From Rhodospirillaceae bacterium MC! (GTDB lineage Bacteria; Pseudomonadota; Alphaproteobacteria; MC1): a stretch of DNA of 64,000 nucleotides. Below are positions 11,617 through 53,370 of this stretch, one piece after another; position 1 is the stretch's first letter, and the number at the start of each line of letters is the position of its first letter. The notes beneath the pieces are model-generated. The model searched no databases, had not been told where the DNA came from, and saw only the letters and a list, made by a program, of their open reading frames with translations. The DNA lies in the NCBI GenBank assembly GCA_002632265.1, contig NQOV01000007.1:243583-307582 (forward strand), written 5' to 3'. A program made the translations under genes and the position numbers.

Positions 11617-12516
11617 ATGCCAATTATTTTACCACGAAATCTTCCTGTCATTCAATCCTTACAAGATCATAATATTGATATTTTATATGAAAAAGATCCC
11701 CATAAGATGTCATATAAAATTGCAATAATGAATCTCATGCCTACAGTCCAAACGACAGAACGTCTATGGGCCTCGGCTTTTTCTCGTCATCCGCATATAA
11801 ATGTTGAGCTGGTGTTTTTTCACTCTACTACAAGAGAATCCAGTCATGAAGATCCGCAACATTTTAAAGAATTCTATCAGAATTGGAAGTTGTTTGACTT
11901 TAACGAGCTTGACGCCATTGTCATCACTGGTGCTCCTTTGGAACATCTTGAATTCAAGGATGTTAGCTATTGGGATGAAATTCAAGATCTCTTAAAAAAA
12001 ATCGAAAAATACAAATTAAAATCCCTACTGGTTTGTTGGGGGGCCCAAGCGGGATTATATTACTTTAATAATATCGATAAGCAAGAAAAAATGCCTAAAC
12101 TTTTCGGCGTATATGCACATGATATACAAACTAAAGATCATATATTAACAAGAAATATCAGCCAAAATAGTAAAATATGTATATCTCGCCATACGGAATC
12201 CCAAATAAATAGCGAAAATAATAGGGATGATAAAGCTCTCCATATTCTAATCTCATCGCCAGAATGTGGTATGGCTCTCTCACAAGATAAAAACCGACCG
12301 TATATTATTTATGCTCAAAACCATTTCGAATATTCAAAGCACACTCTAGAAATCGAGTATAAACGTGATATGAATAAGAATTTATCCAACGTTAACATTC
12401 CCATAAACTATTATGAAAATAACGATCCACAAAAAAACATACTCCATTCTTGGCAACAAACATCAACAATATTTTTCAATAATTTCCTAGATTTCATTTC
12501 TGATACAGTCTGTTAG
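11617..12516 (+). CDS. metA: Homoserine O-acetyltransferase, MetA family
   Basis: 299 aa, usual MetA length. The start MPIILPRNLP has a strong GGGGGAG Shine-Dalgarno. Family motifs: IAIMNLMPTVQTTE, FFHSTTRESSHED, ITGAPLEHLEF, VCWGAQAGLYY (nucleophile Cys140) and a NHFEY segment replacing the usual GHPEY, which keeps the catalytic His and Glu. Residue 109 is Glu where succinyl-specific E. coli MetA has Gly; published work on this family links that Glu to acetyl-CoA use, matching the neighbouring MetY. The stop TAG overlaps the stop of the convergent permease gene (TTAG). Confidence 0.9.
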   Translation: MPIILPRNLPVIQSLQDHNIDILYEKDPHKMSYKIAIMNLMPTVQTTERLWASAFSRHPHINVELVFFHSTTRESSHEDPQHFKEFYQNWKLFDFNELDAIVITGAPLEHLEFKDVSYWDEIQDLLKKIEKYKLKSLLVCWGAQAGLYYFNNIDKQEKMPKLFGVYAHDIQTKDHILTRNISQNSKICISRHTESQINSENNRDDKALHILISSPECGMALSQDKNRPYIIYAQNHFEYSKHTLEIEYKRDMNKNLSNVNIPINYYENNDPQKNILHSWQQTSTIFFNNFLDFISDTVC

Positions 12517-14222
12517 AATATTACGAAATTTAGTAGAATGGAAAATATTACTACTACAATTAGCGGAACAATTACCAAAATTGCAGTGGCTTTTTTGGAT
12601 TTTGTTAGATCGTTTAATACTAGAATTTGGGTTATATTTGTAATAGCTCCCACATTTAAAAATAGGAATGAATTCCCTAAGGCATGGGCTTTTTTGAAGA
12701 TATTACCTGCAATTGGTACAGTACCTTGTGAGCAAACTTCCAACAATATGGAAACGATAAAGACTAATATAAAGCCTTTTACACTTCTCCCAAAATATTC
12801 ATGAAAGATATCAGTTGGAATTATCGTGCTGACAATTGCCGAGAATATCAAACCAAATACCGTCCATTTTACAACGCTTGTTGATCCTGCTATCCCAAGA
12901 CGTAGGGCTTTTTTAAGGAGTTTTCTATCGTAGTTAAGAGCTTTTAAGCCTACTTTTGCCTCTTTAATGAAGTCAAAATCCTTATTTACATGTGATGATA
13001 CTGGATTGGACGGAATAGCTCCATGATTTTCCAAGATATCAACAATAAATCCGATGATAAATGACGCTATAAGCGAAACTATCAAAAATAAAACTGTAGC
13101 TTTCCAACCTAAAAAGATGAACATCATAATGGTAACGCTAAAACTATTCCAAGGGCTAGAAATCAAAAAGGCCATAACATGACTCATCTTCGCTCCCTTG
13201 CGATATAAGGTAACGGCAACCATCATTAAGCCATGATTACAGAGATCAAATAACAACCCTGCTATCATGGCACGGCATAGGGCTTGAGTTCGGCCTTTGT
13301 TTGTCCCCATTATGCTTAAAATAAATTCTCTCGGAATCATTCCTAAGAATCCAACGGCGATAATCCCAACGATTAACCCTGGTAAGGCCGTTAAAAATAC
13401 TTCCGCCATATGATTACTTAAATTGGAAAAGTTTAAATTGATACTTAAAGAATGATTGGCAAAGGTCGAAATGGTAAAATTAACATCCAACGGAGTTTTA
13501 AAAGCGTAGATGTTTTCTAGCTCATGCAAAATCGTAAATAAAATTAGGATCATAGTTCCATAGAAAGTAAACTTATTCCTATTTATCCATAGTTTTTTCT
13601 TCTTATTCTTACCACTATTAGCCTGACCACCACCGCAACAACTGGACTGTAATTCCTGCTCATCGCCACCGCAACAACTGGACTGTATTTCCTGCTCGTC
13701 GCCACCGCAACAACTGGACTGTGTTTCCTGCTCATCGCCACCGCAACAACTGGACTGTGTTTCCTGCTCGTCGCCACCGCAACAACTGGACTGTGTTTCC
13801 TGCTCATCGCCACCGCAACAACTGGACTGTGTTTCCTGCTCGTCGCCACCGCAACAACTGGACTGTGTTTCCTGCTCGTCGCCACCGCAACAACTGGAGG
13901 TTTTTTCTTTGGGTTTTATATTTTCTTGATCTTGATTATTGCCACTGCAACAAGTACTTTTTTCTTGTGAGAGTATGGAGGCAGGTTCTTCTTCTGTAGA
14001 TGAAATAGTATCATCTTGGGTATGGGTATCTTTTGCTACGGTTGTATTATTATTTGATGAATCCGTATCTGTGCCAGTGCTTGAATTTGTGCTAGCTGTG
14101 TTATTATTCTTATTCTTATTCTTATTTTTATGATCATGATGATCGCCACAAGCACAATCTTGCCCGCAACCGCAAGAACATTCTTGCTCACGGCTTTTTT
14201 GTGATATGTTATTGTTACTCAT
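12513..14222 (-). CDS. UPF0718/ArsP-type permease with Cys-rich tandem-repeat N-terminal domain
   Basis: 569 aa. Residues about 200-569 form an eight-or-so helix permease of the DUF318/ArsP-like family (SO_0444-type metal efflux permeases are the nearest group I recognise), with EVFLTALPGLIVGI, LISSPWNSFSVT and LEVCSQGTVPIAG. Both halves contain the GLxx.D/LEVCS-type helix typical of the family. The N-terminus is unusual: CSCGCGQDCACGDHHDH (residues 15-31), a Ser/Thr/Asn linker, STCCSG, then eight near-identical 12-residue units SSCCGGDEQETQ. About 23 cysteines lie before the membrane part. Metal binding or delivery (Cu, Zn, Cd or As) is inferred, not shown. Its stop overlaps that of convergent metA. 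Confidence 0.82.
   Translation of the reverse strand: MSNNNISQKSREQECSCGCGQDCACGDHHDHKNKNKNKNNNTASTNSSTGTDTDSSNNNTTVAKDTHTQDDTISSTEEEPASILSQEKSTCCSGNNQDQENIKPKEKTSSCCGGDEQETQSSCCGGDEQETQSSCCGGDEQETQSSCCGGDEQETQSSCCGGDEQETQSSCCGGDEQEIQSSCCGGDEQELQSSCCGGGQANSGKNKKKKLWINRNKFTFYGTMILILFTILHELENIYAFKTPLDVNFTISTFANHSLSINLNFSNLSNHMAEVFLTALPGLIVGIIAVGFLGMIPREFILSIMGTNKGRTQALCRAMIAGLLFDLCNHGLMMVAVTLYRKGAKMSHVMAFLISSPWNSFSVTIMMFIFLGWKATVLFLIVSLIASFIIGFIVDILENHGAIPSNPVSSHVNKDFDFIKEAKVGLKALNYDRKLLKKALRLGIAGSTSVVKWTVFGLIFSAIVSTIIPTDIFHEYFGRSVKGFILVFIVSILLEVCSQGTVPIAGNIFKKAHALGNSFLFLNVGAITNITQILVLNDLTKSKKATAILVIVPLIVVVIFSILLNFVIF
13629..13900. repeat. 36 bp coding tandem repeat (eight SSCCGG units)
   Basis: Eight direct copies of a 36 bp unit encode SSCCGGDEQE(T/I/L)Q on the minus strand. 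Units alternate between CTCATC and CTCGTC at a synonymous Asp codon, so a 72 bp higher-order unit appears to have duplicated. The near-identity at DNA level indicates recent expansion; copy number may vary between strains. Confidence 0.93.
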
Positions 14223-14285
14223 ATTGTGTACCTCGTATTTTTCATATTATGAGTGTAGGATTCCCCTAAGAAAAAAGGAGATTAT

Positions 14286-20306: not shown

Positions 20307-20650
20307 GACCGCCTGTCAAGACCTCCGCCTAAAGAGTGCGACCGTCTGTCAAGACATCTATCCAAAGAGTGCGACCGTCTGTCAAGACATCCACCTAAAG
20401 AGTGCAACCGTCTGTCAAGACATCTATCCAAAGAGTGCGACTGTCTGTCAAGACATCTATCCAAAGAGTGCGACCGTCTGTCAAGACATCCACCTAAAGA
20501 GTGCGACTGTCTGTCAAGACATCCACCTAAAGAGTGCGACTGTCTGTCAAGACATCTATCCAAAGAGTGCGACTGTCTGTTAAGACATCCACCTAAAGAG
20601 TGCGACTGTCTGTTAAGACATCCACCTAAAGAGTGCGACTGTCTGTCAAG
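20307..20650. repeat. 33 bp minisatellite, ten copies
   Basis: Ten full head-to-tail copies of a 33 bp unit plus a partial one; the unit includes CTGTCAAGACATC and AAAGAGTGCGAC. Two unit types alternate irregularly (ATCCACCT or ATCTATCC before AAAGAGTGC). Each unit contains the small palindrome GTCTGTCAAGAC. Reading frames stay open on both strands because 33 is divisible by three, but differences between copies change amino acids in the frames checked, so I do not call a gene. It lies between copy A of the GGCC element and the polA 3' end. Confidence 0.9.
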
Positions 20651-53121: not shown

Positions 53122-53370
53122 AATGACTACTTCCCCACAATTCCGTTAGGAATGGGGAAAAGCAGTCATTCAGCGTTCTTAAGGCATACGGGGTGTATAC
53201 CCCCATACATAAGTATGCCTTAAGAAATAGCTTGAATGACTACTTCCCCACAATTCCGTTAGGAATGGGGAAAAGCAGTTAGTCAGTGTTCTTAAGGCAT
53301 ACGGGGTGTATACCCCCATACATAAGTATGCCTTAAGGACGCTGAATGACTGCTTTTCCCCATTCCTAAG
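53122..53370. repeat. Tandem array of palindromic elements between mtaB and deoD
   Basis: Two 113 bp direct copies plus a partial end. Each has an arm GGAATGGGGAAAAGCAGT then CTTAAGGCATAC, an apex hairpin GGGGTGTATACCCC and a returning arm GTATGCCTTAAG then CTTCCCCA/CTTTTCCCCATT. The rightmost copy folds into a 42 bp arm with nearly perfect pairing. Read on the minus strand, the deoD stop codon TAG is inside the element sequence TTAGGAATGGGG, which is also present in the non-coding copies. Confidence 0.92.

Follow-up and report, generated by a model that had tools for sequence, protein, structure and literature searches.

Why should a membrane permease begin with a long series of cysteine pairs? 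The window, a stretch of 64,000 nucleotides from Rhodospirillaceae bacterium MC!, contains a permease gene whose product has 23 Cys in residues 1-200, in agreement with the figure of about 23 given in a first-pass annotation. That annotation described a fusion of a Cys-rich repeat to a permease. Tail and permease do lie in one ORF (Table 1), but such a tail occurs family-wide and is not specific to this gene. The sequence features described are borne out, the interpretation only in part. Three things had been missed: a tail of this kind is shared by the family, the protein falls outside ArsP in the strict sense, and its core is strongly altered. We assign a probability of about one half to the reading that the tail is a cytosolic collector of soft metal, probably Cu(I), on an altered efflux permease.

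Table 1. The permease gene and the features of its product, with positions in the window.
Feature	Position	Strand	Evidence
Permease gene, CC-tailed ArsP_1-type, 569 aa	12513..14222	(-)	ORF, translation, Pfam ArsP_1 at residues 272-566
CxC head CSCGCGQDCACG, residues 15-26, then DHHDH	14145..14180	(-)	translation, Cys positions
Lone CC motif STCCSG, residues 89-94 (CC = 91-92)	13941..13958	(-)	Cys positions
Eight 12-residue (36-bp) SSCCGG units, residues 109-204	13611..13898	(-)	TRF, codon listing, pattern count
Basic juxtamembrane stretch KNKKKKLWINRNK, residues 205-217	13572..13610	(-)	sequence; helix H206-238 in AF2 model
Permease core, residues 205-569	12516..13610	(-)	AF2 pLDDT 88, pTM 0.84; Pfam
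First-half motif DLCNHG (D326, C328, H330), conserved	13230..13247	(-)	core alignment
SPWNS motif, residues 356-360, conserved	13143..13157	(-)	core alignment
Second-half motif EVCSQG, residues 495-500; family E499 replaced by Q	12723..12740	(-)	core alignment
N507; Asp in 71/72 and Glu in 1/72 homologues	12702..12704	(-)	core alignment
TNITQ, residues 528-532; family TDYTE (D529N, E532Q)	12627..12641	(-)	core alignment

The gene starts with ATG, and a ribosome-binding-like stretch, GAGGT, is found at 14230-14234. Upstream, across a gap of 63 bp, lies nrdR, which encodes a ribonucleotide reductase regulator with a Zn-ribbon domain. In the same orientation, glyA and nrdR flank a small DUF6898 gene (PF21839; 14959-15222), and glyA-DUF6898-nrdR-permease is a possible operon. 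Sigma-70 and terminator scans gave figures near chance level. Elsewhere in the window, the 3' end of polA carries a 33-bp tandem array (20307-20650; about 10 copies, 99-bp higher order) with an open frame on each strand (165 aa plus, 145 aa minus). This 33-bp family has 48 matches, in arrays dispersed across many host contigs. TRF also reports a 113-bp direct repeat in two copies with 97% identity at 53122-53337.

The tail holds nine CC pairs, and its 23 Cys in 208 residues give a density of 11%. Eight SSCCGG cores start at residues 109-193 with a spacing of exactly 12 residues. The earlier description as eight SSCCGGDEQETQ units is slightly overstated, because EIQ, ELQ and SSCCGGGQANSG variants occur: five units match SSCCGGDEQETQ without change, the sixth and seventh end in EIQ and ELQ, and unit 8, which is adjacent to the membrane, is SSCCGGGQANSG. 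TRF gives the array a period of 36 bp, 7.5 copies, 96% match and a score of 496. The pattern TGYTGYGGNGG is found 8 times in the window, where 0.12 occurrences are expected, a count that no shuffle reached. A higher-order unit of 72 bp, also proposed earlier, is possible but weakly supported and not established: GAC and GAT alternate at one synonymous site from unit 2 to unit 7, but units 1 and 2 do not follow this alternation, and self-comparison of the array yields 7 mismatches in 233 positions at lag 36 versus 4 in 197 at lag 72. Because the DNA units are nearly identical, the amplification is taken to be recent. Divergence is greatest in the units nearest the membrane, which would fit an outward growth of the array from a conserved juxtamembrane motif. 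The tail is disordered in the AF2 model, and the basic stretch before TM1 suggests that it is cytosolic.

A DNA pattern for two close CCGG was found in 13 of 385 alphaproteobacterial genomes, with seven matches in the host genome and one match in each of the other 12, about as rare as a reversed-pattern control. No publication on SCCGG repeats in permeases came up in literature searches. A match of the tail to Galaxin_repeat (E 9e-4) falls short of the Pfam cut-off and was discarded, since it reflects the composition of Cys-rich repeats. CC and CxC are present in the tail, at about half the Cys density usual for metallothioneins and with no match to a sequence family. The closest likeness is to type 2 plant metallothioneins, which have an SSCCGG/MSCCGG head and CxC motifs, and members of which bind Zn/Cd (PMC5192482). 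However, these are small soluble proteins of eukaryotes in which Cys makes up about 20-30%, whereas the window tail is less Cys-rich and fused to a permease, and the resemblance is most likely convergent. As an analogy, the shared M(S)SCCGG head would nevertheless be in line with a collector.

The core matches Pfam ArsP_1 (PF03773) with 84.4 bits against a cut-off of 32.3 (E 1e-23; profile positions 9-294 of 294), so that the designation ArsP/DUF318-type permease holds for the Pfam family but not for ArsP in the strict sense. All surveyed ArsP proteins are reported to carry the motif C(S/T)C within a transmembrane segment (PMC4435449). This motif is present in 0 of 73 aligned cores, that of the window protein included, and assignment to ArsP proper was rejected for this reason. 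ArsP organoarsenical permeases resemble the window protein in Pfam family and in an internally duplicated core (PMC7176098) but differ from it in the motif, in a surrounding ars operon (in the window, no ars genes adjoin the permease gene) and in the Cys-rich tail. NCBIfam NF033936 (SO_0444 family Cu/Zn efflux transporter) aligns with residues 273-568 at 92.2 bits, far below its curated cut-off of 300, and NF040736 (the efflux transporter SaoE) shows weak homology over the core at 81.8 bits, far below 325; no Sao gene neighbours were seen around the permease gene. The canonical CC-tailed homologues tested also score far below the SO_0444 cut-off. Since this is so, and since DLC[SN]H is present in all 73 cores, window core included, and C(S/T)C in none, these proteins form a separate subfamily, neither ArsP proper nor SO_0444. 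By sequence, the window protein is a divergent member of this CC-tailed DLC[SN]H/EVCSE ArsP_1 subfamily, with clear overall homology. The subfamily has no name in the libraries searched.

Within the core, the first and second halves are homologous to each other (hhalign). DLCxH aligns opposite EVCSE, and C328 and C497 are therefore symmetry-related; duplication within ArsP-type permeases is already on record (PMC7176098). A PDB sequence search returned no relative. With the core model, the best Foldseek matches are the IT superfamily elevators SiaQM, IseQM, ArsB and NaCT (probability 0.7-1.0, query TM 0.39-0.49, none at E<=0.001). The predicted core thus weakly resembles elevator-type ion transporters, ArsB among them, but homology is not established, and ArsP has been assigned to the TOG superfamily (PMC7176098).

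How far does the tail extend beyond this organism? An alignment-based scan yielded, across named genomes, 510 stretches encoding relatives, whereas a single-sequence scan of genome contigs found none; a plasmid search returned one distant SO_0444 protein. The best 80 of the 510 were kept by similarity to the window protein, a choice that biases the sample toward many CC pairs. Among these best 80 are Alphaproteobacteria (roseobacters, Kordiimonas, Micavibrio), Gammaproteobacteria (including Thalassolituus, Oleiphilus, Catenovulum and Pseudoteredinibacter) and Verrucomicrobiota (Haloferula, Akkermansiaceae). One sequence labelled as an uncultured Opitutae MAG (L077) falls within the roseobacter clade, by recent transfer or a binning error.

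Comparison of the N-termini, which the first-pass annotation had suggested, revealed a CC, CH or HC pair at most 25 residues before TM1 in 88 of 88 homologues (CC in 76), and unit 8 supplies a pair within about 25 residues of TM1 in the window protein as well. Tails of the 88 homologues, whose start codons were set by rule, hold 0-6 CC pairs versus nine in the window protein, a number taken from a 19-contig assembly and the highest among these. Most alphaproteobacterial homologues have one CC; several other lineages hold 4-6 pairs that have diverged at the DNA level with CC kept. On the core tree, at least 27 changes of copy-number class (0, 1, 2-3, 4+) are required. The only other notable DNA-level repeat over the Cys region of a homologue tail is in L063 (96 bp, 1.9 copies, 79% match). 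In homologue tails, 148 of 215 CC pairs have a Ser directly in front, GG is the dipeptide that most often comes next, and a spacing of 12 residues is the most frequent; what has been multiplied in the window protein is thus the modal motif of the family at the modal spacing. Read from these sequences, the array is a recent DNA-level amplification of the subfamily's own motif, with the top copy number among the homologues examined.

The genes adjoining the homologues point to metal. In at least 16 of 70 homologue loci, a gene of the MerR family lies directly against the start of the permease gene or overlaps it; four of these neighbours were tested by Pfam and confirmed. The neighbour at locus L092 exceeds the CueR cut-off, and that at L047 nearly does. 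A PF02583 metal-sensitive repressor of the CsoR type lies upstream of the permease at L058, and DUF411 proteins are encoded downstream at L062 and L079. SO_0444, which shares the Pfam family, is required during stress by Zn or Cu, and a ZntR-like regulator adjoins it (PMC3219624), which the MerR-type neighbours resemble. The subfamily is thus probably one of soft-metal efflux permeases for Cu(I), possibly Zn/Cd. Copper is favoured because CueR neighbours occur; judged from the neighbours of homologues that are 31-42% identical to the window protein, Cu(I) is probably its metal, and zinc or cadmium is possible. The metal-collecting role suggested earlier for the tail is plausible and fits this family evidence, that is, the CC/CH/HC pair before TM1 together with MerR/CueR and CsoR-type neighbours.

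The host itself gives evidence on both sides. Nothing in its genome (95.5% complete, 19 contigs) matches the heavy-metal P1B ATPase family, versus 14 of 14 control genomes positive, and this favours the collector. The genome encodes one CDF protein, one ArsP_1 protein and two MerR_1 proteins, both of which lack the metal-type Cys loop as judged by eye. No metal regulator was seen beside the permease gene among the ORFs of the window, and no metal-type MerR regulator was detected in the host genome, which counts against the collector.

Of the 73 cores, that of the window protein diverges most. Among 94 columns conserved at 90% or more in 72 homologues, it breaks 32, while the next worst member breaks 15 and the rest at most 8; the second half is affected in 21 of 48 columns and the first in 10 of 41. 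Of seven conserved acids it has lost five (D211L, E499Q, D507N, D529N and E532Q), of which D211, E499, D529 and E532 are invariant in the 72 homologues and D507 is near-invariant. Four are replaced by isosteric amides in this core alone among 73 members, which has EVCSQ and TNITQ in place of EVCSE and the TDYTE acids. The divergence does not appear to be genome-wide, because host GlyA is not comparably diverged: its identity to other alphaproteobacteria is 60% against 66% among these, whereas for the permease core the values are 35% and 50%. Among 20 acidic residues of GlyA that do not vary in four other sequences, the host has a single change, and it is not to N/Q. With so many columns broken and five of seven acids gone, transport may be changed or lost, which also weighs against the collector. 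Rather than simple decay, the core has more likely undergone a change of function, since D326, C328, H330, SPWNS, E495 and C497 are retained, the reading frame is intact and the model predicts the fold well.

In the mechanism that we infer for the window protein, which covers membrane side, metal identity, binding, hand-over and export, the disordered cytosolic tail would hold a thiophilic metal via its CC pairs at the inner face of the membrane. The conserved last pair before TM1 would pass the metal to an intramembrane site, which may be built around the symmetry-related C328 and C497. The 36-bp tandem amplification of SCCGG would have raised the metal-holding capacity, to nine CC pairs and a CxC head. 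The number of pairs differs between members, from 0-6 in homologues to nine here; it might, as proposed earlier, tune the capacity of the tail.

The main rival to the collector is that the transporter has become a sink, in which a non-exporting core anchors a metallothionein-like tail as a membrane metal buffer or sensor, selection on the core having shifted as the tail expanded. The amide replacements of four (near-)invariant acids, the broken columns far above any other member, the unremarkable GlyA and the highest tail copy number among the homologues examined are all consistent with it. On the other hand, the retained residues listed above and the confidently predicted fold argue against loss of export, and we know of no homologue with a proven role for the four acids. 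This reading is unlikely, if well short of negligible. A full conversion of an exporter into a membrane-anchored metallothionein of variable copy number, with the four acids changed to amides and the tail amplified in a genome without P1B ATPases, is more doubtful still. Next comes neutral expansion, in which slippage or unequal crossing-over enlarged the 36-bp array, the number of copies makes no difference and one juxtamembrane pair is enough. Near-identical DNA units, the single CC of most alphaproteobacterial homologues and other tandem arrays in the host genome, such as the dispersed 33-bp family, would be expected under it; yet the unit preserves the frame, both Cys, and the motif and spacing of the family, and other lineages have independently arrived at 4-6 pairs with CC kept in diverged DNA. 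We regard a purely neutral origin as rather improbable.

The exported substrate could be an organometal, an organoarsenical or another thiophilic compound rather than Cu/Zn, as ArsP_1 membership and the weak SaoE match might suggest. The lack of C(S/T)C in all 73 cores, the CueR/ZntR/MerR-like and CsoR-like neighbours of the homologues and the absence of ars genes adjacent to the window gene make this quite improbable. Alternatively, reversible disulfides of the CC pairs may gate or sense. The pairs are oxidisable and the tail is disordered, but several homologues have CH/HC or accompanying His, which would suit metal ligands and not disulfides, and the neighbours of homologues are metal regulators; such a redox device is very improbable.

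A cytosolic collector of soft metal on an altered permease thus remains our preferred reading. For the subfamily as a whole, the tail is a built-in set of Cys pairs, from 0 to 9 CC, often linked to CueR/MerR-type regulators, and it raises a question that can be tested: is the capacity or affinity of a metal exporter determined by how many thiol sites it has in the cytosol? The window protein represents the natural upper end of CC copy number, and its amide replacements single out acids that may couple transport across the whole subfamily.
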